From positions 1 to 39,952 of IMG/VR virus record IMGVR_UViG_3300046001_009672: a stretch of 39,952 nt of DNA. One strand, given 5' to 3'. The first letter of the stretch is position 1; the number at the start of each line of letters is the position of its first letter. Positions 10,770 through 37,926 of this stretch are shown one piece after another. The notes beneath the pieces are model-generated. The model did no database searches. It was not told the origin of the DNA and saw nothing but the letters and a program-made list of their open reading frames with translations. Made by a program: the position numbers and the translations under genes. The stretch comes from a virus.

Positions 10770-11441
10770 TTATCTTCTTGAAACAAGCGAATATGGATCA
10801 TCATCTGTTTTATCTTCATACAAACCTAATTCTCTTAAGCGCCTAACATGATATTCATCTAACTCAAAGTTTACATTATCAGACGTTTTATACATTTTAG
10901 TACCCGTTTCAATTTGCTTTTCATCGCGGTCGTTGAATATCTCACCTACATATAAGTAATAACAGTTATAACACAGCATTTGCAAATTATCTAAATGATA
11001 GTAGTTATGGTCCCCATTCTTAAAATGCAAAAATAGAGGCATTTTATAATCTGTTACTCTCCGTTCGTGAAAACCACAATTATAGCATTTTTCTTCCAAA
11101 TAATTTTGTTCTATTAACCGGCGTTTTATTTTTTGAGGATCAAAATTAGTAGCGTTAATTCTACCTTCTACTATACCTTGAAGAGATGGTTCTGCTTTTC
11201 TGTTTGGATGAGAAGTTAAATGCTTTGGAATACCTTTACCACATTGATTTTTATGCAACTCAAATAATGTTTTACCTGTGGCTTCATCCACATAGTGTTT
11301 CATCCACATTTTAACGTGCGGATAAGAACAATGCAAATAACGAGTCATAGCCTTCACCGACTTAGTTTTTTCCATAGCAGAAAGTAATACTTCCTTGGCA
11401 AGTGGGCGAGGCGGTGCTCCTTTTCTTTTATTCGTACTCAC
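10770..11441 (-). CDS. HNH-type zinc-binding nuclease-like protein
   Basis: A 223-residue protein. Residues 1-60 look like a helix-turn-helix region (AMTRYLHCSYPHVKMWMKHY). Residues 115-165 carry a treble-clef zinc site, Cys119-x2-Cys122 and Cys157-x2-Cys160, framing HFKNGD (139-144) and HLDNLQMLCYNC, the HNH-endonuclease signature. Such proteins may be homing nucleases, packaging helpers or DNA-binding regulators. The 14-nt overlap with the upstream zinc-ribbon gene suggests coupling. Fold call is good; cutting activity is unproven. Confidence 0.82.
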   Translation of the reverse strand: MSTNKRKGAPPRPLAKEVLLSAMEKTKSVKAMTRYLHCSYPHVKMWMKHYVDEATGKTLFELHKNQCGKGIPKHLTSHPNRKAEPSLQGIVEGRINATNFDPQKIKRRLIEQNYLEEKCYNCGFHERRVTDYKMPLFLHFKNGDHNYYHLDNLQMLCYNCYYLYVGEIFNDRDEKQIETGTKMYKTSDNVNFELDEYHVRRLRELGLYEDKTDDDPYSLVSRR

Positions 11442-13144: not shown

Positions 13145-14824
13145 TTAAATTATTTCATATTCGATTTCTGTATCCGAAAGTCCCCAGGTGTCTGTATTAC
13201 GAGAAAACATTATATGATCATGCATCTCGTATTTATTGAAGTATTCTACCCACTCCCAAGCATCGTTGTATCTAGGGGGAGTTTTGTCTGCTGTCTCGTG
13301 TAAATCTTTAATATTTCCTCCTTGAGGTAAAATATTCTTATGAGACATATGATATAAGGGTAAGTTATAATGTGCTTCTAATTTATACCCATATAGTACT
13401 GCTTTTTTCTGGATGTTGGTGTCTATGAAGCATTTGTAGCACATATTTTCTTCAAATCCTCTTATTTTAAGAAATAAATTTCTAGTAGCTAATTGAAAAT
13501 CCCCGCAGCAATTTATTATACTATAATCATCATTAGGAGTTACTTTAGTAGGAAAGAATCTAGGAGAAGATGTCTTATTTAGATATTCCCTATACTCTTT
13601 TAGATTATATTGGTTTTTAATAACCTCAGAATATTCTATTTCTCTTCGACTTAGGGTATAAAATGTATTTTTATTACATGTTTTAAGAAAATTATTAAAA
13701 TCTTCTTTAAATGGAGGAATGATGTCTGATGTAGTGATTACTATCCATTCAGCATCTGTTCTTCTTAGTGCTATGTTTAGTGCTAAAGAATCATAACAAT
13801 TAGGGAGATCAGGGATATTTTCTGCTAATATGGAATGAATTTCTTTAGGTATGACTATATGTTTTAATCTATTAGTTTTAGGAAGTTCATCTAAAATTTC
13901 ATAAATAAAACTTTGAGTAGGAGAATTCCAATCTATATAAACAACTTCATCAAATGTTTCTAAAAGAGTAGTTAAATGTATAAGAAATCTTTCTTTTTCT
14001 TTATATCCATCATTTCTATTTGAAACAATAGCTGTAGTTTTACCTAAAACTATAGTAGGCAGATTATATTCATGTGTTTTTGATTTATGAAAGCAAAAAA
14101 AGTTACCATTATCTACTATGTTGTAAATATAATATTCAAATTCTTCTAAAGATAAAGGTCCTGTGCAGTCTGTTTTATTATCTAAAGGAGAAACATCATA
14201 TATTTCATATTCTAATAATTTTAAAACATCATAATAATCCTTAATTTCTTCTTTAGTCAATCCTTTAAATGCTTCTACCATTAAAACAGGTTTATTTTGT
14301 TTAATTAAAGAAAATAATGTTTTAAGTACTTCTTTATCATATCCTTCAGTATCTATTTTAATAAATTTAATTTTATCTAGTTCATCTTTATAATTTTCTA
14401 ATAAAAAATCATAAACATTTACCCCTGATACTTCTACAGGTGTTGAGTGAGCTTGCTTTATATGTTCTCCTAACTCAATATCATTAAAATTTCCTCCATT
14501 TGTGCCATTTCCCCATATGTTAGGATCAGTATAATAAAAAGTATAAGACTTAGTCTCTAAAGTGGCAGCATAGTTGTAAGGAATTATATTATAATTAGGA
14601 TTGTTTTTAGCATTTTGGTTTAATATTTGATATGTTTTGGGATTAGGCTCAAATGCTAAAACTTTTCCTCTAGGAACACAACTTCCAAATACTATACTAA
14701 AACTACCAACATGCGCCCCGATATCTAATACTATAGAATCTTGGGGAATTAGTTCTGAAAATTTTTTATGTCTAAACTGAAATGTTTCTAGGTTTAGATT
14801 CTCATGGAACGAGGGTGAAATCAT
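13145..14824 (-). CDS. FkbM methyltransferase fused to a glycosyltransferase-like domain
   Basis: A 559-residue two-domain protein. Residues about 25-245 match FkbM-type SAM methyltransferases: VLDIGAHVGSF (SAM-binding), AFEPNP, and FIKIDTEGYDKEVL. From about 255 the chain has a GT-A-like arrangement (TAIVSNRNDGY, EVVYIDWNS, EWIVITTSDIIPP, then CCGDFQLATRNLF). FkbM enzymes O-methylate sugars or other small acceptors, so the protein may add and then cap a sugar with a methyl group. The domain pair is unbroken, with no frameshift. The sugar is not known. Confidence 0.85.
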   Translation of the reverse strand: MISPSFHENLNLETFQFRHKKFSELIPQDSIVLDIGAHVGSFSIVFGSCVPRGKVLAFEPNPKTYQILNQNAKNNPNYNIIPYNYAATLETKSYTFYYTDPNIWGNGTNGGNFNDIELGEHIKQAHSTPVEVSGVNVYDFLLENYKDELDKIKFIKIDTEGYDKEVLKTLFSLIKQNKPVLMVEAFKGLTKEEIKDYYDVLKLLEYEIYDVSPLDNKTDCTGPLSLEEFEYYIYNIVDNGNFFCFHKSKTHEYNLPTIVLGKTTAIVSNRNDGYKEKERFLIHLTTLLETFDEVVYIDWNSPTQSFIYEILDELPKTNRLKHIVIPKEIHSILAENIPDLPNCYDSLALNIALRRTDAEWIVITTSDIIPPFKEDFNNFLKTCNKNTFYTLSRREIEYSEVIKNQYNLKEYREYLNKTSSPRFFPTKVTPNDDYSIINCCGDFQLATRNLFLKIRGFEENMCYKCFIDTNIQKKAVLYGYKLEAHYNLPLYHMSHKNILPQGGNIKDLHETADKTPPRYNDAWEWVEYFNKYEMHDHIMFSRNTDTWGLSDTEIEYEII

Positions 14825-14833
14825 ATTTAGATT

Positions 14834-15577
14834 TTATATTGTTGATACTCCTGATTTTTGTACTACAACAGTGGTACATTCTTGTGCAAATTTAATTGCT
14901 GATTCTATATTACTTGATTTAGCATATTCTGCTACTAAACCTGCTAAAAATGTATCTCCTGCCCCCGAAACATCTTTTACAGGAACATCTATTGTTGGGT
15001 AATTTTTATTTTGATAATTGCAACCATGTTTACCTCTTGTTTTTATAACTTTACTAAATAAAATAGAACTACTAGATAGTATTTCTTTATTTTGATTATA
15101 TTCAATGCTATTCAATTTTATAAATGTAATATTATCTGCCCAATTCCCCAATAGTTTTTTAGTATCTAAAAAAGTAAGAGGGTGTTGGGTTGAAATATAT
15201 TTAATATCTTCTTCATTTAAAAAACCTTTACAATAATCACTTATTACAATAGCATCATATTGTTTCCAATCTAATAGCGTTAAGTCATGATAAAAATTAA
15301 CATGTTCGCATTTATCATTTTCATCAACCCGTAAGAGCAAATGATTATATTTTGAGCAAACATATCTAATTTTTTTAATTTCAGTATGATTAGTTATAAA
15401 AGTTACTTCTGCTCCCAATGCTTTTAAATTTTCTACTACATTACCCGCCATTCCGGGGTTTGATTTCTCTATTTCGGGGACGATAATAGGGATGGGTGCC
15501 TCAGGGGCAAGCCTATTAACTTCTCCATATTTAAAAATGTCTATGCAGCTATCCCCTATAACTAGTATTTTACTCAT
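14834..15577 (-). CDS. HldE N-domain-like PfkB-family sugar kinase
   Basis: I use the ATG at 15575-15577; a TTG three codons upstream is less likely. The protein has 247 residues. It tracks the kinase domain of HldE/RfaE (D-glycero-beta-D-manno-heptose-7-phosphate kinase): NRLAPEAPIPII near 21-32, AGNVVENLKALGA, SDYCKG near 113-118, and the anion-hole plus catalytic Asp SGAGDTF (204-210). It is about 70 residues shorter than the usual domain, mostly through missing loops. The separate HldE C-domain-like gene at 28894-29283 may complete the pathway to an NDP-heptose. Other sugar phosphates are possible substrates. Eight-nt overlap with the upstream reductase. Confidence 0.82.
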   Translation of the reverse strand: MSKILVIGDSCIDIFKYGEVNRLAPEAPIPIIVPEIEKSNPGMAGNVVENLKALGAEVTFITNHTEIKKIRYVCSKYNHLLLRVDENDKCEHVNFYHDLTLLDWKQYDAIVISDYCKGFLNEEDIKYISTQHPLTFLDTKKLLGNWADNITFIKLNSIEYNQNKEILSSSSILFSKVIKTRGKHGCNYQNKNYPTIDVPVKDVSGAGDTFLAGLVAEYAKSSNIESAIKFAQECTTVVVQKSGVSTI

Positions 15578-16292
15578 ATATTTCAATTTTAATTTGTTTT
15601 TTATCGAAGCCTAGATTTTGTAAATTAGTTTTAGCTTGCTTAACCATTTCTTTCCATCCACATATAAAAAATTCTATGTCTAACCCATTGTAGGAATTAT
15701 TTTTTATTTGATTAAAATAATTATCTATTATAGATTCATATATTAAATGTACATACCCTTGTTTGTTCTCCCAAGGTTCTCTAGATAAAATAATATGATA
15801 TTTTAACTGAGGAAGATCTTTTTCTAATTGAGTCATTTCATTATAATATAATATATTATTTTTGTCTCGTGTCCCAAATACTAAGTGTATATCCCCTGTT
15901 TCAATATTATTTTCTCGTATATGCTCCAGCATAGATTTAAAAGGAGAAATACCAGTTCCGGTACAGATGAAAATATAATTTTTTTTAGTATTTTCTCCCA
16001 TTACCATTATTCCTGAGGGGCCGTCAAAATTAACTTCTGTTCCAATAGGAGATTTCCATAGATAATCAGTGCCCTTCCCTCCAGGCTTTTTAACTATGAT
16101 TAATTCATAAGTGTCTTGAGATGGAGAATTAGCAATTGAATAGTGTCTGATTCTACGAGAAGGTTTTTCATCAATAGGTAAATCTAAGGATATAAATTGT
16201 CCTGGTTGGAAAAAGGATTTTGATTCTGGTTTAAAATAGAAGCGGTTAGTAGTAGCTGTTTCTTTGATTATATTAATTAGTTTTGCTTTCAT
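15570..16292 (-). CDS. Ferredoxin/flavodoxin-NADP reductase-like flavoprotein
   Basis: A 240-residue FNR-type enzyme: FAD-binding RxYS motif (R49-H-Y-S52), a second flavin loop (KPGGKGT), and the NAD(P)-binding TGTGISP at 111-117 with FFICGWKEM near the end. It moves electrons between NAD(P)H and a carrier through FAD. It has no 2Fe-2S domain. In this cluster it might supply electrons to the radical-SAM enzyme through a host flavodoxin or ferredoxin, or to a sugar C3-deoxygenation step. Overlaps the nucleosidase gene by 20 nt. Confidence 0.85.
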   Translation of the reverse strand: MKAKLINIIKETATTNRFYFKPESKSFFQPGQFISLDLPIDEKPSRRIRHYSIANSPSQDTYELIIVKKPGGKGTDYLWKSPIGTEVNFDGPSGIMVMGENTKKNYIFICTGTGISPFKSMLEHIRENNIETGDIHLVFGTRDKNNILYYNEMTQLEKDLPQLKYHIILSREPWENKQGYVHLIYESIIDNYFNQIKNNSYNGLDIEFFICGWKEMVKQAKTNLQNLGFDKKQIKIEIYE

Positions 16293-16839
16293 TTAAAATG
16301 TCTTTTATTTTGTTAAAACCTATTTTACAATTTTCTTTCCAATCACTCGCATTTCCATCATCACTAACCCATTTGTATGAACTAAATTTTATATTAAAAC
16401 GTTTACAAACCTTAGCAATAGCAAAACATTCCATATCAAAGACAGAACATTTATTTATCATTTCCAAATACTTCTCAGAGTATTTTGATTTTTGTTTTTC
16501 ATCATAGAAATAATCTGTAGTAAAACAAGTATTATTATTCTTTGAATCTAGTATTATCTGATAGCTTGATGGTTCAAAGGGAGTATGACCATATTCTGCT
16601 ATGGGAGTAGGATCAATATCTTGGAATGTTTGACCTATTTTGATTATTTCTCCTGCCTTATGTTTTAATGAACCGCAAGACCCTATATTAATTATTTCTT
16701 TATAACCCTGGTTAAATGCAGTGTAAGCAGCCATCGATGCATTAATTTTACCCACACCACTAAAGATAACAGGATTTCCTAGTATCATACCCTGTGTCTC
16801 TACTTCATCAGGAACAGCTACTATAAAAACTTTATTCAT
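16273..16839 (-). CDS. MTA/SAH nucleosidase-like enzyme (PNP/UDP family)
   Basis: A 188-residue protein of the nucleoside phosphorylase family. GVGKINASMAAY, NIGSCGSL and the ribose/catalytic motif FDMECFAIA (E in DME) appear in order, then VSDDGN with the catalytic Asp position of methylthioadenosine/S-adenosylhomocysteine nucleosidases. It would cleave MTA, SAH or 5-prime-deoxyadenosine to adenine. It is shorter than E. coli MTAN (about 230). The adjacent adenine phosphoribosyltransferase (8-nt overlap) would take up the released adenine, which supports this substrate class. Confidence 0.82.
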   Translation of the reverse strand: MNKVFIVAVPDEVETQGMILGNPVIFSGVGKINASMAAYTAFNQGYKEIINIGSCGSLKHKAGEIIKIGQTFQDIDPTPIAEYGHTPFEPSSYQIILDSKNNNTCFTTDYFYDEKQKSKYSEKYLEMINKCSVFDMECFAIAKVCKRFNIKFSSYKWVSDDGNASDWKENCKIGFNKIKDILNESKTN

Positions 16840-17317
16840 ATTTAATTAAACTTTTAACGTTATTAGGTTTATGCAAAAATGCTAAATCAATGAGTACCAC
16901 TTTATCTATTACTTGATACCCCGCTTTTACACATAACTGCTCAACAGCATCCATTGTCCCCCCAGTAGCATATACATCATCTACTATTACAACTTTACCA
17001 TTGCCTTCCTGGATTTCTAGAGTGTCATTCCCATATTCTAGATCATATTTAATAGAAATGCAAGGAGGGGGTAATTTGCCTTTTTTGCGGACTATTTTTA
17101 AACCATTTTGGGTCTTACTAGCCATAGCAGAAGCGAATATAAATCCCCTAGAATCTATACCTATAAAATAATCTGGTTTATGGACTAGATTAAGCATCTT
17201 AATTATAGCTCTATCAAATATTTCTCCATTAGCTAGTAAAGGTTGTATATCCTTAAATATAATTCCTGGTTTAGGAAAATCAGGTACATCGTTAATATAA
17301 TTTTTAAAATCAAGCAT
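16832..17317 (-). CDS. apt: Adenine phosphoribosyltransferase
   Basis: A 161-residue enzyme close to bacterial APRT in length and order: the N-terminal DVPDFPKPGIIFKDI at 10-24, FIGIDSRGFIFASA, and the PRPP-binding VDDVYATGGT at 112-121. It turns adenine plus PRPP into AMP. I chose the ATG at 17315-17317 over a GTG one codon upstream. Eight-nt overlap with the upstream RmlC-like gene and 8 nt with the nucleosidase gene, so the two adenine enzymes are probably translated together. Confidence 0.92.
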   Translation of the reverse strand: MLDFKNYINDVPDFPKPGIIFKDIQPLLANGEIFDRAIIKMLNLVHKPDYFIGIDSRGFIFASAMASKTQNGLKIVRKKGKLPPPCISIKYDLEYGNDTLEIQEGNGKVVIVDDVYATGGTMDAVEQLCVKAGYQVIDKVVLIDLAFLHKPNNVKSLIKYE

Positions 17318-17786
17318 CACGTGAAGATAATATAGGGTTTTGGGTTGGCCAATATATTTTTATTTTTGGATCATTCCATTTTAAGGAAAACTGATCTTTA
17401 ACATCTGGGTATTCTCCAGGGTATGACCATTTGTAAAAAAATGTAGCTTCATCACTTAGAACTAGATGGCCATTGGCAAACATAGGGGGTATTAAAATTG
17501 ATTTTTTATTTTTTGATGATAAAATTATAGAATCCCATTTTAAATAATTAGGAGATTCAGGTTTATTATCTACTACTACTAAATAAACTTCACCAGCTAA
17601 ACAGGATATATGTTTCCATGATTTAAAATCACCATGTAATCCTCTTAGAACATGTTTTCGAGAAATAGAAACTTTATCATGATTAAAAGTTAAATCACTA
17701 TCTTCTTGTTTAAATAGGGTATAAAGTTCTCCTCTATAGTCCTCAAATGAATCCGGTTGAAAGATCTTTACTTCAGGAAATATCAT
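17310..17786 (-). CDS. RmlC-like dTDP-sugar 3,5-epimerase
   Basis: A 158-residue cupin of the RmlC family: ISRKHVLRGLHGDFKSWKHI holds the RGLH histidine and the Lys/His that contact substrate, with a later IPPMFANGHLVLSDEATF and WNDP near 135. RmlC epimerises C3 and/or C5 of 4-keto-6-deoxy NDP-sugars. Some residues of the second active-site loop are unusual, so single-carbon epimerisation is possible. It follows the ColD-like gene with a 4-nt overlap (ATGA), implying the same pathway. Confidence 0.85.
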   Translation of the reverse strand: MIFPEVKIFQPDSFEDYRGELYTLFKQEDSDLTFNHDKVSISRKHVLRGLHGDFKSWKHISCLAGEVYLVVVDNKPESPNYLKWDSIILSSKNKKSILIPPMFANGHLVLSDEATFFYKWSYPGEYPDVKDQFSLKWNDPKIKIYWPTQNPILSSRDA

Positions 17787-18955
17787 AAATTGTTTAATAT
17801 ATTAATCAATGTATCTATTTTTTCTTGGGGTAATGAAGGATAGTTTCCAATGTACCAACCAAAATTATGAACATGTTCTATATTAGGATAATTATTAAAA
17901 TCATAATTAAATTGTTTCATAAAAGGTTGTCTCATTTGATTTCCTCCTCCTGATAAGCCTCTTCTAAATTCTATTCCTTCTTTTTTTAGGGTAGCTTCTA
18001 AATGGTTTCTTTTTTCAAATGAGGATTCTTTTAGTATTACTATAAAAGCATAGTTACATTGACCTTTTAAATTTATATCTGTAATATATTTTTTAGAATC
18101 TAATTTAGACATAAAATAATTAAAATTAGATATTCTTTGCTTATTATTTTTATCTAATCGAGGCAATTGATTTAATCCAATCACTGCATTAATCTCTGTA
18201 CTCCTAAAATTATGAGCAGGTCTAATAAATATAAAATCAGAATTTAAATCGGGATTAGCATCAATAATTTCTTGTTTCATTTCATTATTGGTCATTTCTC
18301 TCATCATACCATGAGAACGTAAAGCTCTACATATTTGGTAGAATTTTTCATCATTAGTACAAATCATCCCTCCTTCAATAGTGGACATATGGTGAGCAAA
18401 ATAAAAACTAAAATTAGAAGCAAAACCAAAATTACCTACTTTAATATCATTGAATGTAGTTCCATGTGATTCACAAACATCTTCAATAAGTAAAATATTT
18501 TTTTCTTTACACAATTGAAGAAGATCCTCAGTTAAACCATTAATTCCTAAAACATGAGTTAAAAATATAGCTCGTGTATCAGGAGTAATTGCTTTTTTTA
18601 ATTTATCTAAATCAAAAGACAGATTATTTAGATTTATATCTACAAATACTGGGCTAAATCCGGCGAACATGACAGAAGATACATCTGAGATCCAGGTTAA
18701 TGGGGGGATAATAATTTCTCCATCACCATATAGATGTTTTAGGGCTAGCATAGTCAGCTCATTAGCTGAAGCCCCAGAATTGACCATTAAATTATATTTA
18801 GTTCCTAACCATTCTCCCCACTTATTTTCAAATTCAACTACTTTAGGGCCATTAGTAAGTTTAGGGATTTGATCTTGATTTAAGAAATCAACTATAGAAT
18901 TAACATCATCCCTAGTGATGTTATCATCCATTAAAGGTAAGTAATAATTGTTCAT
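17783..18955 (-). CDS. ColD-like PLP enzyme: sugar 3-dehydratase type with catalytic Lys replaced by His
   Basis: A 390-residue DegT/DnrJ/EryC1-fold enzyme. The usual Schiff-base lysine of SFxxxK is His188 in FSFYFAHHMSTIEGG (182-196), the change that defines GDP-4-keto-6-deoxymannose 3-dehydratase (ColD) and RfbH/AscC. No Cys-rich 2Fe-2S insert as in RfbH is seen; the region after RSHGMM continues to HNFRSTEINAVIG with few cysteines. ColD removes the C3 hydroxyl of a 4-keto-6-deoxy sugar. Length matches ColD (388). Donor nucleotide cannot be told. It sits among split E1-like subunits and an RmlC-like epimerase. Confidence 0.87.
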   Translation of the reverse strand: MNNYYLPLMDDNITRDDVNSIVDFLNQDQIPKLTNGPKVVEFENKWGEWLGTKYNLMVNSGASANELTMLALKHLYGDGEIIIPPLTWISDVSSVMFAGFSPVFVDINLNNLSFDLDKLKKAITPDTRAIFLTHVLGINGLTEDLLQLCKEKNILLIEDVCESHGTTFNDIKVGNFGFASNFSFYFAHHMSTIEGGMICTNDEKFYQICRALRSHGMMREMTNNEMKQEIIDANPDLNSDFIFIRPAHNFRSTEINAVIGLNQLPRLDKNNKQRISNFNYFMSKLDSKKYITDINLKGQCNYAFIVILKESSFEKRNHLEATLKKEGIEFRRGLSGGGNQMRQPFMKQFNYDFNNYPNIEHVHNFGWYIGNYPSLPQEKIDTLINILNNL

Positions 18956-18967
18956 ATTTATTTTTAA

Positions 18968-19504
18968 TTATTTTTCTCCGTAATAATCACCCCATTCTAC
19001 TAATATAGTTGGTCGGTTATCTGTTCTTTCATAAGCATATTGGAATGCTTCAAATATTTGGTAAGGTTCATCTAAACGAATAATATCAACCCAATCACAC
19101 ATAGCTTTAAAACCAGCAGTAAAATCAGCAATATGCTGGTGTTGGGGATGAAGAGGACGTTGTGAACCAATTGATGTTCTTATAATTACTTTAGGAGTAT
19201 AACCACCACTAGACATAATTTTTATTTTATCTAAGTGATTTATTACCTGATTGGCGGCTAATAGTAAAAAATTCCAGCGTGGATATATTGAAATGGGTAC
19301 AGTTCCATTCATAGCCATTCCTATAGTAATTCCCATCTGCATGTCTTCATTAACAGGCATTTCAAGCATTTTGCTTCTATCTACATCTTTAAGAGTATTT
19401 GTAATAGCTGTACCAGCATATTCAACTGCTTGTCCTAAAAATAATGTATTAGGCTTTTCATTAAGCCAATCCATTGAGCGTTTTAATTCATCAAAATATT
19501 TCAT
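18968..19504 (-). CDS. Thiamine-diphosphate enzyme, E1-beta-like (pyrimidine-binding) subunit
   Basis: A 178-residue protein matching the pyrimidine-binding domain of E1-beta/transketolase: LFLGQAVEYAGTA, EMPVNEDMQMGITIGMAMNG (Glu53 in the position that activates the thiamine ring), SIYPRWNFLL and the SQRPLHPQHQ loop. It lacks the C-terminal transketolase-C domain of full-length E1-beta (about 325 residues). It pairs with the E1-alpha-like gene 2 nt upstream. In sugar clusters such split subunits add a two-carbon branch (avilamycin AviB1/AviB2), so a branched sugar is a plausible product. Confidence 0.84.
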   Translation of the reverse strand: MKYFDELKRSMDWLNEKPNTLFLGQAVEYAGTAITNTLKDVDRSKMLEMPVNEDMQMGITIGMAMNGTVPISIYPRWNFLLLAANQVINHLDKIKIMSSGGYTPKVIIRTSIGSQRPLHPQHQHIADFTAGFKAMCDWVDIIRLDEPYQIFEAFQYAYERTDNRPTILVEWGDYYGEK

Positions 19505-19506
19505 AA

Positions 19507-20112
19507 TTAAAATTGAATTCGTTTCCCCGCACCCGCGTGTGGGTATTTAGTTTGATATTTATAATAGATAATTTTACGAGTTTCTTTAGCAAAATAAAGT
19601 TCATCAGTATTCCAAACTTTATATGTTTCTGTGCATACAGATTTACCATTATCTTCAATTATATAAGTAATAGGTAAATCATGATTAATAGAATATTTCC
19701 AATTCTCAAAGAAAGTACCAGTTTCAGATGTCATTTCTCCAACAAAACACCAAACATGGTTACTACCTCCTTTGCGTTTAATATCTAAAGCAACACCTGT
19801 TGCTATAGGAATATTACCTGTTACTATAGCAGAGGAATAAATATTATATTCAGGATAACATAAAGTAATAGATTTACCATCTAAAATATCTTGCTTTAAC
19901 TGCTCAGGAGGAACCCCTTTAAGTAAACATTGATAATGAGATCTCCAAGTACAAAAAATCCAATCTTCATCTTTTATATTTTGAAAGATTTGAATTATTT
20001 GTTCTTCATTTCCATCATATAAATGAATGGGAGCCTTAATCATAGCATTATTAAAACATTCCGCTATGTCTGTTTCAAAATCTATTAATTGATTTTTGTT
20101 TAATTTATTCAT
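19507..20112 (-). CDS. Thiamine-diphosphate enzyme, E1-alpha-like (pyrophosphate-binding) subunit
   Basis: A 201-residue protein related to E1-alpha. It keeps CTWRSHYQCLLKG (54-66, like YRDHG...G), PIATGVALDIKRKG and the cofactor motif region FVGEMTSETGTFFENW...LPITYIIEDNG (123-156). The usual GDG is GEM here, so the Mg-binding Asp is Glu126, with the Asn of the motif kept (Asn155). It is shorter than normal E1-alpha (about 330). Reaction probably involves a keto-acid donor such as pyruvate, but that is inferred from family only. Overlaps the upstream glycosyltransferase by 8 nt. Confidence 0.82.
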   Translation of the reverse strand: MNKLNKNQLIDFETDIAECFNNAMIKAPIHLYDGNEEQIIQIFQNIKDEDWIFCTWRSHYQCLLKGVPPEQLKQDILDGKSITLCYPEYNIYSSAIVTGNIPIATGVALDIKRKGGSNHVWCFVGEMTSETGTFFENWKYSINHDLPITYIIEDNGKSVCTETYKVWNTDELYFAKETRKIIYYKYQTKYPHAGAGKRIQF

Positions 20113-20920
20113 TGATTAAAAATTTTTTTCTTTTTTCCCACATTTTTGTAAAATTATCATCTACATCCCAAAAAGAATATAAACTACCATCTATATTAAT
20201 TGTAGCATTTTTTTTATAACTTTTTTCTACTCGTTTAGATATATCATCTTGTTCTATTCTTTTATTATGTACGCTATAATGTATGATTTTTATAATATCA
20301 ATAGTAGATATTATATAAAATTTATTTGAATTTAATATAAGTTCATATAAAATAGTATCACCCCCCCAAGTTGGTATTTCTCTAGGATAAAATTCATCTA
20401 AGTCTTTACAATAATTAGAAGATAATATAGGGAAACAACAACTTAAATCTCTATGCGAGTTAATGGATTCACCATTTTCATTAAAATGAGTATCATCATT
20501 TATTCTGAAATAGTAATATTTTTTATTGGTTTCTATATTAGAAAATATATCAGGTAATGCTTCCATTATTGCTGAATAAAAATATCCATCCCAGTTTTCG
20601 TTAGCAATAGCACAATCATTGCCTAATATCCAAGTAAAATAAGAATCGGAAGCTAATTTTAATCCTAAATCATAATAATCATTAGGTAAATCTAATTCCT
20701 CTTTTTGTTTTCTACTAACAAACTTAAAATCATAAGTTATTTGAGAAGATATTTCATGAAATAAATCTAATGTTTGTTTATCATCGTGATCACAAATAGA
20801 AATAACTTCAATCCAATCTTTATTATAGGTTTTTTCTTCTATTGATAGAAGTAATTTTTTAACTAAATCATATCTACCTCGAGATGGAAATATAATAGTA
20901 ATTAATTTTTCTTTATTCAT
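20105..20920 (-). CDS. GT-A-fold glycosyltransferase-like protein
   Basis: A 271-residue protein starting TIIFPSRGRYDLVKKLLLSI, as in GT2-type transferases, with a nucleotide-pocket-like ICDHDD and a GND (WILGNDCA) near 110-120 plus RINDDTHF near 153-160. It belongs with the PSR-start transferase at 12348. No membrane segment. Donor unknown. It is the first gene of a unit with its own promoter just upstream and leads into the E1-like pair. Confidence 0.8.
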   Translation of the reverse strand: MNKEKLITIIFPSRGRYDLVKKLLLSIEEKTYNKDWIEVISICDHDDKQTLDLFHEISSQITYDFKFVSRKQKEELDLPNDYYDLGLKLASDSYFTWILGNDCAIANENWDGYFYSAIMEALPDIFSNIETNKKYYYFRINDDTHFNENGESINSHRDLSCCFPILSSNYCKDLDEFYPREIPTWGGDTILYELILNSNKFYIISTIDIIKIIHYSVHNKRIEQDDISKRVEKSYKKNATINIDGSLYSFWDVDDNFTKMWEKRKKFLINE

Positions 20921-20925
20921 ATAGT

Positions 20926-20957
20926 GAATATAATTAAAAATTCTTAAAAAGCCAAAT
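20926..20957 (-). promoter_or_regulatory. Promoter inside the glycan cluster
   Basis: ATTTGG (20952-20957), 17 bases, ATTATATTC (20926-20934) on the minus strand. The -33 box starts just past the stop codon of the 284-residue gene. The -7 box is close to but not identical with TGTATATTT. Confidence 0.6.
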
Positions 20958-20958
20958 T

Positions 20959-21813
20959 CTAATAAAAAGCTCTAAATAAATATTCGTTATGAGGAGTATT
21001 AGATATATTAGAAAATATATTTTCTTTAATAGATTTAAAATTATTATTTCCATCATAATAATGCATAGCATTAGTATATAATCCATATCTCCACCAACAC
21101 ACTAACCTTGATTTTTGTTGAAGGGGCTGGCCACGATGTATAGCAAAGGTATCCGCTAAAATAGCAGTACCTGCTTTCCCCGTTATAGTTATTGATTTGT
21201 CTGATTCCGATCCGTCTTGAGTTCCTGGGTAAAACACATGAGGACCTGTTGTTTCATCAACATCTGTTAAATATATAAATAGTGCTAAAAATCTAAAATC
21301 ATCATGATCTCTATGATTGTTTTGAGTTCCGTATGTGTTACCTTTATATATGTGCCACCATGAATTTAATGAATATAGCGTTGGAAAGCACCCTAAATAT
21401 GCTTGAGATAAAGATAAAATATAAGGATCAATTATTTTATTTAAAATTATTGGTTCATTTAATAAAGCCGTTGGAGGATAACTTAATGTATTAAAATTAT
21501 ACTCAGGAGTTAATTTTCTTAAAACTTGATCACTATATTTAGGTACATGAGTATTGTACCCTTCCTGCCCAATCAATTTATTTTTAATTTTATCAACTTC
21601 ATTTTGAGATAAAAAATTATCAAATATTAGATACCCATCTGTTTTTAATTTTATTTCATCTTCTTTCTTATGAATTTGTTTTACAGGAGAAATATAACTA
21701 TTTACTATTTCACTAATTATAGGAGGGTACTTATTTCTAAGATCTACATTTAAGTAGGTATGAATATTAATATTGGGTATTAAAGAAGAAATTTGGGGTT
21801 CTGGGGTGTTCAT
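20959..21813 (-). CDS. Phytanoyl-CoA dioxygenase (PhyH)-like Fe(II)/2-oxoglutarate oxygenase
   Basis: A 284-residue protein. NNHRDHDDF gives an HxD pair (His167, Asp169), with a distal His226-Arg227 in AIHRGQP, the iron and 2-oxoglutarate ligand set. The strand LALFIYLTDVDETTGPHVFYPGT is typical of PhyH. Such enzymes hydroxylate or modify small molecules, including sugars and lipids. The substrate here is unknown; placement between a methyltransferase and a glycosyltransferase suggests a sugar or acceptor. A-rich leader before ATG. Confidence 0.85.
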   Translation of the reverse strand: MNTPEPQISSLIPNINIHTYLNVDLRNKYPPIISEIVNSYISPVKQIHKKEDEIKLKTDGYLIFDNFLSQNEVDKIKNKLIGQEGYNTHVPKYSDQVLRKLTPEYNFNTLSYPPTALLNEPIILNKIIDPYILSLSQAYLGCFPTLYSLNSWWHIYKGNTYGTQNNHRDHDDFRFLALFIYLTDVDETTGPHVFYPGTQDGSESDKSITITGKAGTAILADTFAIHRGQPLQQKSRLVCWWRYGLYTNAMHYYDGNNNFKSIKENIFSNISNTPHNEYLFRAFY

Positions 21814-21840
21814 AATTATATTTTATTTATTATTTTTATT

Positions 21841-22449
21841 TTAAACTATTTGTTTTACCCAAATTGGAATTTTTTGACCATCAGGATCAGGAAATACATT
21901 GATATCAAAACCAAAATGATCATAAACTGCTTTTATAACTCCATAGTGTTTACCATTAACATAATCCTGTTCTAACCATTCTGGGTTGATGTTATTTATT
22001 AGATTTATATCTTCTAGATCATGACCGCATAATAATCCTCCTGGTTTCATTTTAGGTAAGCATAATTCAATATCTTTGTAAACACTAGAGTATCTATGAT
22101 CAGCATCTATAAAACATATATCTAAACTATTATCAGGTATTTCAGGAATCATATCCCATGATTTACCTCTTTTAATAGTTGTTATATCAAGATAAGGCTG
22201 GATGTTATTTATAAAATTATTATAGATGCTACCAGCTTTAGTTTCATTATAGGCATGTGGTCCAGTTACATTTTCATTACCGTTAAACCAATCTATAGCA
22301 TATAAATGTCCATTATTTTGTTTAATTATATCAATATAAGCTTTAGTAGTTGAACCATCATATGTTCCTATTTCAGCAATCACCATGCCTTCACTTTGAT
22401 TAGCTTTTACTACATCTACAAAAGCTAAAATTGGTTTCATTATTCCCAT
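21841..22449 (-). CDS. Class I SAM-dependent methyltransferase
   Basis: A 202-residue protein with the SAM-binding VIAEIGTYDGSTTKAYI (about 23-39), an acidic second strand YAIDWFNG and CFIDADHRYSSVYKDIEL (Asp after strand 4), then GGLLCGHDLEDIN. This fits the Methyltransf_24/cephalosporin-hydroxylase-like group found in glycan clusters. The methyl acceptor is unknown. ATG at 22447-22449 with an in-frame ATG three codons later as an alternative start. It follows the radical-SAM gene. Confidence 0.85.
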   Translation of the reverse strand: MGIMKPILAFVDVVKANQSEGMVIAEIGTYDGSTTKAYIDIIKQNNGHLYAIDWFNGNENVTGPHAYNETKAGSIYNNFINNIQPYLDITTIKRGKSWDMIPEIPDNSLDICFIDADHRYSSVYKDIELCLPKMKPGGLLCGHDLEDINLINNINPEWLEQDYVNGKHYGVIKAVYDHFGFDINVFPDPDGQKIPIWVKQIV

Positions 22450-22458
22450 AACTCTTTA

Positions 22459-23997
22459 TTATTTTACTATTTTTCTTTTTAATTTCACTTTTAACATATT
22501 TAATATATTGTCTATAGCTACTTGTCCAAATTTATTTTTAACTTTTTCTAAAAATGGAGGATAAGAATGATATTCATCGAATGCTTTATCTCTAAACTCT
22601 AATACTTCAGCCGCAGATAATGTTTCTGTAGGAAGAGGTAAGGTTTCATACCCATGAAATGAATACCCTTCATAAGTGTCAGGTAAAGGAATACCTTTTT
22701 CAACAGCATCTTTATATAATTTACTACCAGGTAAAGCCATTGCGGCATATGCATTCCACCCAAATGTACATAATTCTTTTGAAAATTCTAGGGTTTTTTG
22801 CATTGACTCTTTAGTATCGCCTGGTAGGCCAAAAATATAATTTGCCATTACTTCAATATCAGCCTCATGTACTTGTTTAATAACTTGGGTAATATCTACA
22901 TCTTCAAATTTGCCTTTAGATACTTCTAACCTTACAGTTTTATCAGCACTTTCAATACCTAAAGCCAGCCATTTAATGCCTGCATCTCTGATTAATTGAA
23001 GTAAATCGGGACGACGAACGGTGTCTACTCGAGAGTATGCCCACATTCTTAAAAATTTTCCATATCCTTTATCTCGGAGCATTTCACAAAGAGGAACATA
23101 ATATTTTCTATTTAAGAGGAACATTTCATCAGTTATTTTAATAGTATAAACTCCTAATTTAACTAACTTATCAAATTCTTTTATAATAAATTCAGGAGAC
23201 CAAAATCTCATTAAGCTATAATGTCCTGCTACTCCTATTTCTTCTTCATCATTCCTGTTTAAAATATTAATCATACAGAAATCACATCCGAACTGACACC
23301 CTAATGAGGTTTGGATGGCAGCATATGGTGATCTTTTATCTTGATCATATTCAGCGTGCCACATAGGTGCTCTGTATAGATCAAGAGGTTTTTCTTTATA
23401 TGGAAGTAAATCCCAAGCGTACCCTGGTAAGTCTATATCCATCCTATCACTTGGTACTACCTTTTCAGGAGGATTTATTTTAGGGGTACCATTCTGCCTC
23501 CATACTAAACCCTTAATATGGCCTAAGTTATTAATATCAATTTTATCTTCTGCTAATACATTTAATAATGAATATACTCCTTCATTAGTAAAACCAAAAT
23601 CAATTGAAGGTTCATCATTTAATGCTTTGATAGGCACAGCTTGTATATATGATCCAATATAAGAAATAGGGATATCAATATTTGCAGATTTAATAGCATT
23701 TGAAATATACACTGCTCCACTCATATTAACTGTTCCTGCATTGACATTTTGTCCATACACAACAAAACAGATTAAACGAGGATTTAAATTATTTATTCGG
23801 TCAATAATCTCAGTACTTTTTAATTGTTCTGCATTAGCATCAATTAAACCAACATTATATCCTTTAGAACGACACGCTTCAGATAATAATAATGCCCAAG
23901 TAGGAGGTTCAATAGCAGCATAATCATTCGCTAAATTTTGATAGATACCATCCGCATTGCCCGGACATATAAATAGTATATCTAGTTTATTATTCAT
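22459..23997 (-). CDS. Cobalamin-binding-domain radical SAM protein
   Basis: A 512-residue protein. Residues 1-160 look like a B12-binding-type Rossmann domain (DILFICPGN, YNVGLIDANAEQ, IRNLNP-like ICFVVYGQ), without the DxHxxG base-off motif. The radical SAM core has CxxxCxxC at Cys234, Cys238 and Cys241 (LGCQFGCDFCMINIL). This class methylates or rearranges small molecules and sugars. Its by-products (5-prime-deoxyadenosine, SAH) are targets of the nucleosidase at 16273, and the flavoprotein at 15570 could help reduce its cluster. Substrate unknown. Confidence 0.88.
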   Translation of the reverse strand: MNNKLDILFICPGNADGIYQNLANDYAAIEPPTWALLLSEACRSKGYNVGLIDANAEQLKSTEIIDRINNLNPRLICFVVYGQNVNAGTVNMSGAVYISNAIKSANIDIPISYIGSYIQAVPIKALNDEPSIDFGFTNEGVYSLLNVLAEDKIDINNLGHIKGLVWRQNGTPKINPPEKVVPSDRMDIDLPGYAWDLLPYKEKPLDLYRAPMWHAEYDQDKRSPYAAIQTSLGCQFGCDFCMINILNRNDEEEIGVAGHYSLMRFWSPEFIIKEFDKLVKLGVYTIKITDEMFLLNRKYYVPLCEMLRDKGYGKFLRMWAYSRVDTVRRPDLLQLIRDAGIKWLALGIESADKTVRLEVSKGKFEDVDITQVIKQVHEADIEVMANYIFGLPGDTKESMQKTLEFSKELCTFGWNAYAAMALPGSKLYKDAVEKGIPLPDTYEGYSFHGYETLPLPTETLSAAEVLEFRDKAFDEYHSYPPFLEKVKNKFGQVAIDNILNMLKVKLKRKIVK

Positions 23998-23998
23998 A

Positions 23999-24937
23999 TT
24001 ACAGATTTGTAAAATCTTTATTTTTAAATTTATTTATAAGTTGATACCCAGCAATTAACTCCTGGATGCCATCTTCTAGATCAAACTCAGGTTTCCAACC
24101 CTTAGATTCTAATTTAGCATTTGAAACCATATAATTTCTTTGGTCAAAATCTTGTTTAAAATTATTTTCGACAATAACTAAATCAGGAACAAATTGTTTA
24201 ATTTTATTTGCTAATTCTAATTTAGTACAATTTGCTGAACTTAGCCCTACATTAAACGCATTATTATTACATTTTTCATAATTTTCAATCATAAATAAAA
24301 AGGTGTTTGCAATATCTCGAACGTGGATATAATTACGAATGTAGTGGGATTCAAATAATACTAAATATCCGTCTGTAACAGCTTTATACACAAAATCTTG
24401 TACTAGTAAATCCATCCTCATTCTATAAGACATTCCAAACACAGTTGCTAAACGTAAAGCAATCCCGTTACCTGAATCTAGTATTGCCTTTTCAGCATTG
24501 CACTTTGTTTCAGCGTATAATGAAAGTGGTTTAAATGGGGATTCTTCAGTAATAATTTCTGTTGACGAGCCGTACTGACTATTAGTGTTTGGGATCAGAA
24601 TCATTTGATTTTTACTAGCCCATTGGGTAATATTTTTTACTTGCTCATAATTTACTTTTATAGTCAATTCAGGCTGAGCCTTGCAAGCAGGCATTCCTAC
24701 GATAGCTGCTAACGGGATTATAATATCGTGTTGTTCTACTAATGATTTAAGCAAAGTTTCATTAGTAACATCTCCTAAAACAAATTTAAAATTTTTATTA
24801 TAAGTAAAAGGTGCTACTGATATTTGCTTATATGCTAGATTATCTAAAACAGTTACTTGATATTTTTTATTTAGTAATACTTCTGTTAAAATGGAGCCTA
24901 AGTAACCCGCCCCGCCGGTGATTAAAACTTTTTTCAT
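23999..24937 (-). CDS. NAD-dependent epimerase/dehydratase (extended SDR)
   Basis: A 312-residue SDR with the GGAGYLGS nucleotide loop (8-15), LGDVTNE, and the YAETK active-site Tyr/Lys near 140-145. The region IPNTNSQYG, where sugar 4,6-dehydratases have T-D-E, reads N-S-Q, so an epimerase, reductase or other NDP-sugar reaction is more likely. Late motifs (NAFNVG, GWKPEFDLEDGI) fit the family. Start is supported by the promoter at 24964-24995. It probably makes or reshapes the NDP-sugar used by this cluster. Confidence 0.88.
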   Translation of the reverse strand: MKKVLITGGAGYLGSILTEVLLNKKYQVTVLDNLAYKQISVAPFTYNKNFKFVLGDVTNETLLKSLVEQHDIIIPLAAIVGMPACKAQPELTIKVNYEQVKNITQWASKNQMILIPNTNSQYGSSTEIITEESPFKPLSLYAETKCNAEKAILDSGNGIALRLATVFGMSYRMRMDLLVQDFVYKAVTDGYLVLFESHYIRNYIHVRDIANTFLFMIENYEKCNNNAFNVGLSSANCTKLELANKIKQFVPDLVIVENNFKQDFDQRNYMVSNAKLESKGWKPEFDLEDGIQELIAGYQLINKFKNKDFTNL

Positions 24938-26771: not shown

Positions 26772-27463
26772 AAAAATAATTCTAATAATTTAATAGTTTC
26801 TAAACTTAAATAATGGTTGTACTCAAAATCTATATTTTTTGAAAAACATAAATCTATAGATTCTTGTAAAGGATCGTTATTTGGATTAGATAAATCTATA
26901 GTATTATTATCTATACAAATTAACTTTTTCTTTTTTCCTCTATAATTTCTATTGTAATTAATTTTTACTTTAATATTACCATAATCAAAAGTTATGATTA
27001 ATTTATTAGTAGTATTTTTTACATAATGTATATTACTTATTTGATAAACCCCTATTAAATGAATAAGAACATATAAGTCATGATATAATAAATCATTTAC
27101 TAAAGTATCATTATATGGACCTTTTTTTAACCAAATAAATTCAATATTGTTTGCTAAGGGTATGTTTATATTTTTAATTTCATCTCTTAATAAAAAAATA
27201 TTGTCTATATATAAACATGTATTTTTTTCCTTAGCTAAATTTATTAATTCTAAAGATGAATTATAATTTAATGTTAAAGGTTTTTCACAAAATATATTTT
27301 TTCCTTTTTGAAGACATTCTTTAACTATATCATAATGAGTAGGAGGTGGAGTAGCAACAAAAATCCACTCAGCATCTTCTGGTATAGAGTTGATTGTATT
27401 ATTAATTAATTTGGAGTTAATTATTTTACCCCAATATCCATGGCCTATTAATCCTGTTTTCAT
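26768..27463 (-). CDS. Gfo/Idh/MocA-type oxidoreductase, short
   Basis: A 231-residue protein with N-terminal NAD-binding GHGYWGKI, the FVATPPPTH strand and the signature IFCEKPLTL. This family reduces or oxidises sugars at a single carbon. It is about 100 residues shorter than usual; the C-terminal half is reduced, ending at LSLETIKLLELFL. The overlap with the FAD gene (4 nt) and intact frame argue against simple decay, but activity may be changed. Likely a sugar-nucleotide step. Confidence 0.8.
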   Translation of the reverse strand: MKTGLIGHGYWGKIINSKLINNTINSIPEDAEWIFVATPPPTHYDIVKECLQKGKNIFCEKPLTLNYNSSLELINLAKEKNTCLYIDNIFLLRDEIKNINIPLANNIEFIWLKKGPYNDTLVNDLLYHDLYVLIHLIGVYQISNIHYVKNTTNKLIITFDYGNIKVKINYNRNYRGKKKKLICIDNNTIDLSNPNNDPLQESIDLCFSKNIDFEYNHYLSLETIKLLELFL

Positions 27464-28497
27464 ATCATGATATTATCATCAAAATTTCTGTTTAATAAGC
27501 CTTTTTTTATTTGTTTAGCAACTTTAACACAAGTATTTATTTTGCCTGAAAAGATTGTTATAAAATTAGGATTAGTAGGGTAGGTAATAATTTTAGAGAG
27601 TCGTTCATCATCTTTTGTAATAGGGATAGCTCTAGATGTTCTCCAATAATCTATAAACTTAACATCTTTAATAAAAGGAAAATATCTAGAAGAATCTTGC
27701 TTAATCATTTCTAAATTATAAGAAATATCTTCTAGAGGGGCTAAATTAATTTCTTCTGTTTCTTTTAAAACTGAGTATTTAGCGTGGTATAAAAGAAATT
27801 GATTGGGGGTATTTCCTTTAGGCATGATGCTACAGAAGGGCCCATCCATAACTGTTAAACCAATTTTAGGATGATTATATTCAAATATAGGGATAATAAC
27901 ATCTTGTAATTTGAACTTTAAAGAAGGTACCCCCATTATATCATTTATGTCGTTTATTCCGGCATAAGAACAATTAATGATAAAATCATAATTCAAATGT
28001 TCTTTAGAAAATTGAGTATTTAATTTTAATTTGACTTGAGAATTATTTAATTTATTTTTTATAATGTTTTTTAATATTTCCCAATCAAAAATAGGTTCTT
28101 CTACTTTAAATGAATTTTCAATTAATAATGGGTTTAATATATCTGAAGCAGGGTATTCTGGATGGTAATCAATGCCCACTTTATTACAAAAATTCTTATA
28201 TTCAACTGAGTTGATTTGGCTTTGTTCTGCTGATACTGCATAGTAATTTGGGAAATTACTTATAATGGATTCTTTATACATCATTAAAAATGAGATTAAT
28301 CCATCTAAACTTTGAGAAGCAGTTCTTATACTTCTAGGGTAATGATATCCGTAATGTATTCTATTATGATTACATTTTGAAGCCCCATCCATTATATCTG
28401 GGTTTTTTTCTATCAGTGTAATATCTAGATTATATTTGGATAATTCTAAAGAGATAGAGCATCCAAAAATTCCCCCTCCTATTACTAGTATTTTCAT
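27460..28497 (-). CDS. FAD-dependent oxidoreductase (DAO family)
   Basis: A 345-residue protein from ATG at 28495-28497 (a TTG two codons upstream was not used). It starts with the Rossmann FAD motif KILVIGGGIFGCSISLEL and IEKN, followed by a substrate-side SKCNHNRIHYGYHYPRS. DAO-family enzymes oxidise amino or hydroxy groups, for example glycerol-3-phosphate or amino sugars. The end (TIFSGKINTCVKVAKQI) has the usual second FAD strand. Its ATG overlaps the upstream TAA. Substrate unknown. Confidence 0.85.
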   Translation of the reverse strand: MKILVIGGGIFGCSISLELSKYNLDITLIEKNPDIMDGASKCNHNRIHYGYHYPRSIRTASQSLDGLISFLMMYKESIISNFPNYYAVSAEQSQINSVEYKNFCNKVGIDYHPEYPASDILNPLLIENSFKVEEPIFDWEILKNIIKNKLNNSQVKLKLNTQFSKEHLNYDFIINCSYAGINDINDIMGVPSLKFKLQDVIIPIFEYNHPKIGLTVMDGPFCSIMPKGNTPNQFLLYHAKYSVLKETEEINLAPLEDISYNLEMIKQDSSRYFPFIKDVKFIDYWRTSRAIPITKDDERLSKIITYPTNPNFITIFSGKINTCVKVAKQIKKGLLNRNFDDNIMI

Positions 28498-28901
28498 TAC
28501 CAACTAATTTCCCAATCTTTAAATTCAGCTGCTAGACAATCGATTTTATAATCTTTTCTGCCGCCTACTACTTCTTGTATTTTATTTTTAGCTACATTAC
28601 GAATACCATTCAAACCATGTGTTAATTCTAAATTATTACCATCTTTAATACCTTTTCTATAATTTGACTCATTGTGCCATATATGAAGGTTCATTTGTGA
28701 TAATACAACTATAGCACGAATGGTCTCAGCAGTTACTTTACTATCTTGTTCATCTAATAAAAGCTGGATATCATGGGTTATTTCGGCTATTTCTTTAGCA
28801 TATTCTTCTTTGTGTTCAGTAATAAATACTTCTTTGAGTTGAACTATTGATAGTCTATCAACTAGTTCACTTAACGTAGGTAAATATTTTCTTTTATTCA
28901 T
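28497..28901 (-). CDS. Unrecognised 134-aa helical protein, possibly DUF4254-related
   Basis: An all-helical, soluble protein beginning TLSELVDRLSIVQLKEVFIT, with a NLHIWHNESNYRKG stretch near 72-85. The LVDRLSI...LK pattern reminds me of the DUF4254 family of surface-glycan clusters, but from memory only. It lies between the FAD oxidase and the nucleotidyltransferase and overlaps the latter by 8 nt. Function unknown. Confidence 0.72.
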   Translation of the reverse strand: MNKRKYLPTLSELVDRLSIVQLKEVFITEHKEEYAKEIAEITHDIQLLLDEQDSKVTAETIRAIVVLSQMNLHIWHNESNYRKGIKDGNNLELTHGLNGIRNVAKNKIQEVVGGRKDYKIDCLAAEFKDWEISW

Positions 28902-29283
28902 TATTCAATATTTGTGTTGTGGATTTATTAGGTATTTTTTGAAAAAATTTTATTTCAGGAATATATTCTTTACCTATAATAGATTCATAAGTATAATCAT
29001 CTCCTATTATCATTATGTCTGGGGTGTAATTTTTGATTTGGTTGATTAGTTCTTCATCAGAATCAAAAGTAACTACATCTGTAATGTACTTAATTGTTTT
29101 TAAAAATCCAACTCTATCTTCTAAACTATTAAAGGGGCGTTTATTTCCTTTTTTTTCCTTAATTCGTCTATCTGAATCTAGTCCTACTCTGATTGTGCCA
29201 AAGGAAGAAGCATATTCAAATAGTTTAATATGACCTATATGAAGAACATCAAATGAGCCATTTATCCAAACTTTCTTATTCAT
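28894..29283 (-). CDS. HldE C-domain-like nucleotidyltransferase
   Basis: A 129-residue cytidylyltransferase-fold enzyme: GSFDVLHIGH with the HxxH pair at His15 and His18, the RPFNSLEDR segment, GDDYTYE near 93-99 and STTQIL near the C-terminus. This matches the nucleotidyltransferase half of HldE (heptose-1-phosphate adenylyltransferase) more than TagD. It would activate a sugar-1-phosphate, perhaps the product of the kinase at 14834. GmhA, GmhB and HldD were not seen here. Overlaps the cupin gene by 8 nt. Confidence 0.82.
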   Translation of the reverse strand: MNKKVWINGSFDVLHIGHIKLFEYASSFGTIRVGLDSDRRIKEKKGNKRPFNSLEDRVGFLKTIKYITDVVTFDSDEELINQIKNYTPDIMIIGDDYTYESIIGKEYIPEIKFFQKIPNKSTTQILNNE

Positions 29284-29662
29284 ATTGGCTATCCCCCTTT
29301 AAAACTCTATAACTATCTTCTTCGTAATGCTTTGTTGATATTTCAAATATTGTAGCTCCTTCTGTTAGTGCTTTTAGTTGATGGGGCTGCCCTCTTTCTA
29401 AATCTATAACATCACCTTCATTTACTATAGTCATTTTTGATGTTGCACTTTCAGTATTAATCCAATGATATTCAAATTGACCTTTAGCTATATACCATGT
29501 TTCTTTTTTAAGTAGATGATAATGCATTGAAAATTTTTTATCTTGATTAAATACTAAAAGCTTACCACAGTATTCGTCATTATTTACAATCCATAATTCA
29601 TACCCCCAAGCTTTAAGATGTAATTCACCTTGATGGGGTAGAGGTTCATATTTGTGTCCCAT
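29276..29662 (-). CDS. Cupin-fold protein
   Basis: A 128-residue single cupin: MHYHLLKKETWYIAKGQFEY has the first metal-site histidines plus Glu, and LERGQPHQL holds the later histidine. The pattern resembles small mannose-6-phosphate/lyxose-isomerase-like or WbuC-like cupins of glycan clusters. Isomerase or epimerase activity on a sugar is likely but unassigned. Overlaps both neighbours by a few nt. Confidence 0.8.
   Translation of the reverse strand: MGHKYEPLPHQGELHLKAWGYELWIVNNDEYCGKLLVFNQDKKFSMHYHLLKKETWYIAKGQFEYHWINTESATSKMTIVNEGDVIDLERGQPHQLKALTEGATIFEISTKHYEEDSYRVLKGDSQYE

Positions 29663-35994: not shown

Positions 35995-37926
<1,932 letters not shown>

Follow-up and report, generated by a model that had tools for sequence, protein, structure and literature searches.

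A candidate phage gene set for a C4-branched 3-deoxyheptose, with a ColD-type dehydratase and a short split thiamine enzyme

Sugar-branching enzymes dependent on thiamine diphosphate (ThDP) have so far been reported from lipopolysaccharide (YerE) and antibiotic clusters, with viruses named only as a place still to look, and keto sugars are branched by both E1-type and transketolase-type ThDP enzymes (PMC12247030). YerE and ErwE, of yersiniose and erwiniose, are single-chain decarboxylase-superfamily proteins acting on CDP-hexoses, in which a 3-deoxy-4-keto sugar is combined with a ThDP-borne aldehyde (PMC12247030). The alpha-KADH2 enzymes (AviB1/AviB2, Pau11/Pau12, KbDH-alpha/beta) are split E1-alpha/E1-beta ThDP enzymes encoded beside sugar genes without E2 or E3, in antibiotic clusters with deoxyhexose-type sugars, and are proposed or shown to put a two-carbon unit on a keto sugar (PMC12247030, PMC4753412). 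The GDP-heptose modification of Campylobacter jejuni (Cj1427, the Cj1430/MlghB epimerase and the HS:5 C3-dehydratase; PMC10680097, PMC7949155) ends in a C4-reductase, and Cj1427 together with a C. jejuni 3-dehydratase gave GDP-3-deoxy-4-keto-heptose in vitro (PMC10680097). Here these systems are compared with a gene set in a viral DNA stretch of 39,952 bases (IMG/VR virus record IMGVR_UViG_3300046001_009672; the whole stretch is called the window). It encodes a similar C4-dehydrogenase, epimerase family and pyridoxal phosphate (PLP) 3-dehydratase, and has, where the C. jejuni route has its C4-reductase, a split ThDP pair and a radical S-adenosylmethionine (SAM) enzyme.

The gene set is probably the phage version of a bacterial pathway in which GDP-D-glycero-manno-heptose, or a close nucleoside diphosphate heptose, would lose its C3 hydroxyl and gain two carbons as a branch at C4. 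At its center, at 17310-20112, lie the genes for an RmlC-like epimerase, a ColD-type enzyme and E1-beta- and E1-alpha-like subunits, contiguous or overlapping by a few bases on the minus strand, which holds nearly all genes of the window. All of the cassette genes are open and full-length, with tiny spacers. The original prediction had named these four genes, with His188 in the ColD-type enzyme, and each gave a Pfam match to the expected family. Its span was too narrow: the same run also holds the radical-SAM, nucleosidase/phosphoribosyltransferase and sugar-kinase genes, and the functional gene set covers about 14834-24937. Genes that may supply the pathway lie at 28894-29662.

The closest PDB relatives of the PLP enzyme were ColD structures 2gms and 3gr9 (E 3e-56), scoring far above 3bcx/3bb8. 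Its His188 aligned exactly with the position changed in the ColD mutants H188N and H188K (3b8x, 2r0t), and this histidine, at the position of the Schiff-base lysine, was conserved in 94/94 viral and 60/64 bacterial homologues. The cysteines that hold the 2Fe-2S cluster in RfbH-like relatives (L014, L021, L027) are absent. By alignment the protein is thus a ColD-type sugar 3-dehydratase and not of the RfbH/Fe-S type, sharing with ColD the histidine, the DegT fold and the missing cluster cysteines; it differs in its likely substrate, a 4-keto-heptose that keeps O-6. The FNR-like flavin reductase of the window was rejected as an E3-type partner, the dehydratase having no Fe-S cysteines and the reductase no 2Fe-2S domain. 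Some related phages carry a second, longer, RfbH-like 3-dehydratase beside the ColD-type one (L012:17579-18892 and L014:14863-16173, both minus strand), and that of L014 has Fe-S-type cysteines.

The evidence for a heptose comes from the neighboring genes. The short-chain dehydrogenase/reductase (SDR) at 23999-24937 was 54% identical over 305 amino acids to PDB 6vo6 (E 1e-104; next PDB entry, E 2e-18), which we take to be Campylobacter Cj1427, a GDP-heptose C4-dehydrogenase. The active site of the window protein reads NTNSQYG and has no Asp-Glu pair like that of 4,6-dehydratases; TNS[GQA]YG occurs in most phage and bacterial copies. With this sequence orthology and no 4,6-dehydratase motif, the SDR is probably a Cj1427-like GDP-heptose C4-dehydrogenase that leaves O-6 in place. 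The RmlC-like protein matched best the Campylobacter heptose epimerases 7ang, 7an4, 8db5 and 7m14 (E 6e-46), the nearest RmlC being 1dzr (E 1e-24), and by this measure it is much closer to GDP-4-keto-heptose epimerases than to RmlC. No C4-reductase-like gene was found in the window, and only 2 of about 80 loci in each phage set carry one, as expected if the ketone is consumed in forming a carbon-carbon bond. The sugar of the pathway is most likely a heptose. Because of the C4-dehydrogenase, the heptose-type epimerase and the GDP-heptose genes of bacterial operons described below, the expected product is a 3-deoxy, 4-C-branched heptose with a hydroxyl at C6.

The ThDP pair is short (E1-alpha, 201 amino acids; E1-beta, 178 amino acids). 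E1-alpha consists of the core domain only; its AlphaFold2 model (pLDDT 92) had human pyruvate dehydrogenase E1-alpha (1ni4, TM 0.80) as top Foldseek match, and E1-beta matched pyruvate dehydrogenase E1-beta 1ik6 (E 1e-9). The ThDP motif G(D/E)M...EDN, H59 of E1-alpha and E53, H90 and H124 of E1-beta are invariant or nearly so over 83 and 76 phage loci and 66 and 59 bacterial loci. At the Mg ligand the window E1-alpha reads GEM in place of GDM, unique among the phage copies; since 33/66 bacterial orthologues also carry GEM, it appears to be a natural variant, and an inactivating mutation was ruled out. Judged by its residues, the pair is a genuine and ThDP-competent member of the ThDP family. 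Neither outcome named beforehand as fatal to the prediction, non-dehydratase relatives of the PLP enzyme or a pair unable to bind ThDP, is indicated by these alignments. Unlike the E1 of a pyruvate dehydrogenase complex, the pair has no lipoyl E2 or E3 among the recognized window genes or the typical cassette neighbors, and as two separate E1-type chains it is not YerE-like. It resembles the alpha-KADH2 enzymes in its split E1-alpha/E1-beta form with ThDP and Mg residues (one conservative D-to-E change) and may act like one. Known alpha-KADH2 members are full-length subunits with a C-terminal transketolase domain in beta, which the window pair lacks; it is therefore not filed among them. It is also shorter than they are and sits in GDP-heptose and phage glycan clusters.

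A relative of E1-alpha is encoded by 285 IMG/VR stretches. Around 83 phage E1 loci the genes within about 10 kb included the dehydrogenase (50), the RmlC-like (49), the ColD-like (27) and the radical-SAM gene (12), and the short pair occurs in 41 of the 64 phage loci that a search with the ColD-like protein gave. In 80 bacterial loci from many phyla the order of genes recurs, with the ColD-like gene in 61, radical SAM in 54 and the dehydrogenase in 50, and the E1 pair adjoins the 3-dehydratase in most operons. The bacterial loci also hold HddA-like kinase (58/80), HddC-like transferase (33-40/80) and GmhA-like genes; in one operon (L145) examined family by family the top scores were HddA, HddC, GmhA and GmhB. 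Because of these genes the bacterial substrate is most likely GDP-heptose, and the nucleotide in phages may differ. By gene content the cassette recurs in Nitrospirota, Verrucomicrobiota, SAR11, Burkholderiales and Cyanobacteria and in hundreds of phage contigs. Matches to acoA in Acinetobacter 'phage' were set aside, since they belong to an ordinary acetoin operon and the contig carries bacterial genes, and a plasmid search with E1-alpha gave no match.

The strongest argument for the branched heptose is that one slot in these clusters is filled by differing split ThDP pairs. Among 399 Burkholderiales genomes the short E1-alpha was present in 5, the radical-SAM gene in 18, the dehydrogenase in 20 and the 3-dehydratase in 12. 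A split ThDP pair belonged to the cluster in 19 of the 20 dehydrogenase-bearing genomes, a count to which no p-value is attached since related genomes are not independent, and which includes G230, with the pair about 20 kb away, and G283, G330 and G357, with the parts on separate short contigs. The occupants are the short E1, a split transketolase (L252, L255, L276), a longer E1-like pair (L253, L254, L257) and a full pyruvate dehydrogenase-like E1-alpha/beta (L258 and seven more genomes), the four types being about 25% identical to each other. The sole dehydrogenase-bearing genome without a ThDP pair, G236, also has no 3-dehydratase or radical-SAM gene, and its heptose is probably unbranched. 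In phages, 52 of 64 loci with the 3-dehydratase include a ThDP pair, which belongs to one of three types; of the other 12, three are on pieces under 11 kb. The pair is near-constant across clusters, and therefore ThDP ligation would be a near-constant part of the pathway, the enzyme of this step being exchanged among clusters, perhaps along with its donor.

The radical SAM enzyme carries CX3CX2C at residues 234-241, conserved in 107/107 aligned homologues, and a weak B12-binding match. Its best NCBIfam model was HpnJ (E 2e-29), the enzyme responsible for the cyclitol in bacteriohopanetetrol cyclitol ether (PMC12583986). The scores, 103 bits in the window and 172 bits in the bacterium, fall far below the HpnJ cut-off of 577.6 bits, and HpnJ is the nearest model only. 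The nucleosidase was present in 18/37 phage loci with the radical-SAM gene and in 2/27 without it (p 3e-4; p 0.04 after clustering at 85% identity), and the co-occurrence of adenine phosphoribosyltransferase (APRT) is similar. This association suggests the removal of S-adenosylhomocysteine or 5'-deoxyadenosine. The co-occurrence of the flavin reductase (p 0.06) was not significant after clustering, and its link to the radical SAM enzyme is only suggestive. The nucleosidase and APRT genes (16273-17320, minus strand) overlap, a possible module for recycling SAM by-products.

Gene identities, active-site residues, conservation and co-occurrence are directly established; from them we infer every reaction of the following scheme, with its order, the pyruvate donor and the nucleotide. 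The Cj1427-like dehydrogenase would oxidize C4, the ColD-type enzyme, using pyridoxamine phosphate (PMP) and glutamate, would remove the C3 hydroxyl, and the RmlC-like enzyme would invert C5. The short E1-alpha/beta would then decarboxylate pyruvate, and the resulting hydroxyethyl-ThDP carbanion would attack the C4 ketone to give a 4-C-acetyl-3-deoxyheptose, a carbon ligation that would replace the usual C4-reductase. The B12/radical-SAM enzyme would next close a ring on the branched sugar or methylate it at carbon. Its helpers would be the nucleosidase and APRT together with the flavin reductase, which between them would clear SAM by-products and provide electrons; the surrounding glycosyltransferases would use the product. 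Erwiniose was set aside as a product; it is made by ErwE from CDP-hexose.

The original prediction had proposed a yersiniose-like hexose, deoxygenated at C3 and C6 and carrying a two-carbon branch, with the 4-keto-6-deoxy precursor formed by a 4,6-dehydratase that might be the host's. The 3-deoxy position and the carbon branch survive as the most likely outcome, and the 6-deoxy hexose does not, even though GDP-4-keto-6-deoxymannose is the substrate of ColD itself and YerE follows the same acceptor logic in yersiniose (PMC12247030): the same run encodes a C4-dehydrogenase that is predicted to be unable to dehydrate C6 and that would take the place of the host enzyme, the epimerase is of heptose type, and the bacterial operons hold GDP-heptose synthesis genes. 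We consider such a hexose quite improbable. Somewhat less improbable, and still unlikely, is an upstream role in which the E1 pair, like a transketolase or DXS, would make a sugar phosphate precursor rather than modify a nucleotide sugar. In cyanophages S-SM2 and P-TIM68 the genes next to the fused E1 encode a PfkB kinase, a nucleotidyltransferase resembling HldE-C, and GmhA, and some operons have a split transketolase in the slot of the E1 pair; against this, host metabolism already makes sedoheptulose-7-phosphate, the pair adjoins the 3-dehydratase in most operons, and the missing C4-reductase is what a ligation that uses up the ketone predicts. That the genes are non-functional passengers from a bacterial O-antigen locus might be read from the nesting of the window E1-alpha near bacterial copies and from the Glu at its Mg ligand. 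It is the hardest of these readings to credit, given the intact genes with tiny spacers, the catalytic residues conserved across many phage loci and the frequency of the Glu variant in bacteria.

The fate of the branched 3-deoxyheptose is less certain. It is plausible, though less likely than not, that the radical SAM enzyme acts as a B12 C-methyltransferase, in which case the branched sugar would be methylated and have no ring. Its B12-binding domain and the co-occurring S-adenosylhomocysteine nucleosidase would fit, and many cobalamin radical SAM enzymes are methyltransferases; HpnJ, however, was the top NCBIfam model in both phage and bacterium, above all methyltransferase models, and the nucleosidase fits 5'-deoxyadenosine clearance too. 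Doubtful, yet worth stating, is a route to a carbocyclic nonose of caryose type, in which the interchangeable ThDP enzymes would set the branch (acetyl at C4; C8 and C9) and the HpnJ-like enzyme would then join C7 to C8 into a cyclopentane ring. Caryose is 4,8-cyclo-3,9-dideoxynonose (PMC9026286), and it shares with the predicted C7-C8-closed product nine carbons, a deoxy C3, oxygens kept at C6 and C7, tertiary C4 and C8 and a terminal methyl. This likeness is a structural match and not evidence of identity; the caryose comparison is speculative and C-methylation at least as likely. No biosynthetic pathway for caryose was found in the open-licence literature searched.

Several observations weigh against the branched GDP-heptose itself. 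PDB 6vo6 is annotated only as a putative epimerase/dehydratase, and Cj1427 is our own naming of it. The RmlC-like gene, common in phage loci, is rare in bacterial ones (6/80), and epimerization is for that reason not a core step. Neither HddA nor HddC was found in the window, and its HldE-like kinase and nucleotidyltransferase would indicate ADP-heptose unless the host provides GDP-heptose. E1-beta covers the Transket_pyr domain only, whereas characterized branching enzymes have the C-terminal transketolase domain as well, and E1-alpha has Glu for the usual Mg-ligand Asp. The divergent cyanophage relatives (S-SM2, P-TIM68) have their fused E1 with an alcohol dehydrogenase and without a clear C4-dehydrogenase; function in the most divergent cyanophage forms may differ.

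Table 1. Coordinates of the sugar-pathway genes and their neighbors in the window
Feature	Position	Strand	Basis
PfkB kinase, HldE kinase-domain-like	14834..15586	-	TIGR02198 rfaE_dom_I E 7e-39, below cut-off
FAD/NAD(P)H flavin-reductase-like protein without 2Fe-2S domain; possible electron donor	15570..16292	-	PF00970 and PF00175 only
Methylthioadenosine (MTA)/S-adenosylhomocysteine (SAH)-nucleosidase-like protein	16273..16839	-	PF01048 E 2e-13; NF005522 E 2e-16
APRT, adenine salvage	16832..17320	-	NF002636 E 4e-53, 179 bits vs cut-off 125
RmlC-like epimerase, putative GDP-4-keto-heptose type (C5 or C3/C5)	17310..17786	-	PF00908 E 4e-39
ColD-type sugar 3-dehydratase (predicted)	17783..18955	-	PF01041 E 2e-71; His188 codon 18392-18394
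Short E1-beta-like ThDP subunit, catalytic Glu53	18968..19504	-	Transket_pyr E 1e-10
Short E1-alpha-like ThDP subunit	19507..20112	-	E1_dh E 7e-13; ThDP motif GEM...EDN about 19648-19740
B12-binding-domain radical SAM enzyme, HpnJ-like	22459..23997	-	PF04055 E 1e-17; PF02310 E 1e-6
SDR enzyme, probable GDP-heptose C4-dehydrogenase (Cj1427-like)	23999..24937	-	Match to PDB 6vo6, motif NTNSQYG
Conserved helical phage protein 'F5'	28497..28901	-	Recurs near cassette in phage loci
HldE-C-like nucleotidyltransferase; possible activated-heptose supply	28894..29283	-	TIGR02199 rfaE_dom_II E 2e-25, below cut-off
Cupin (WbuC/lyxose-isomerase-like), possible sugar isomerase	29276..29662	-	PF07883 E 3e-6; WbuC E 2e-6

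The protein F5 (134 amino acids, all-helical, strongly conserved) was present in 44/83 phage E1 loci and 0/80 bacterial loci; it had no Pfam or PHROG match, and its AlphaFold2 model (pLDDT 82) gave no significant PDB fold match. A 559-amino-acid protein (13145-14824, minus strand) begins with an FkbM methyltransferase domain, followed by a long C-terminal region that is perhaps a glycosyltransferase, and recurs in 23/80 ColD-type phage loci. Overlapping genes for Gfo/Idh/MocA-type and DAO-type oxidoreductases (26768-28503, minus strand) are found together in a few related phages, and an HNH-endonuclease-like gene (10770-11441, minus strand; phrog_14736, E 2e-7) adjoins the glycan region. GroEL is encoded at 35995-37647 on the minus strand (phrog_5725, E 2e-156), which fits a phage with a large genome, and contigs of relatives that share the cassette are as long as 221-358 kb.

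What is new here is a combination of known enzyme kinds: the gene set is not described in the open-licence literature searched, which likewise held no report of branched-sugar or thiamine enzymes of this sort in phages. If the proposal is right, the genes would constitute an undescribed nucleotide-sugar pathway that links GDP-heptose chemistry, ThDP carbon branching and a radical-SAM step, and would offer a defined set of enzymes for bacterial sugars that are branched and perhaps carbocyclic. A single metabolic slot would then be filled by four ThDP enzymes with hardly any relation to each other. Should the caryose-type route hold, a large phage would carry a pathway for a carbocyclic sugar. 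The branched-heptose pathway, if real, suggests that phages build elaborate sugars like those on their hosts.

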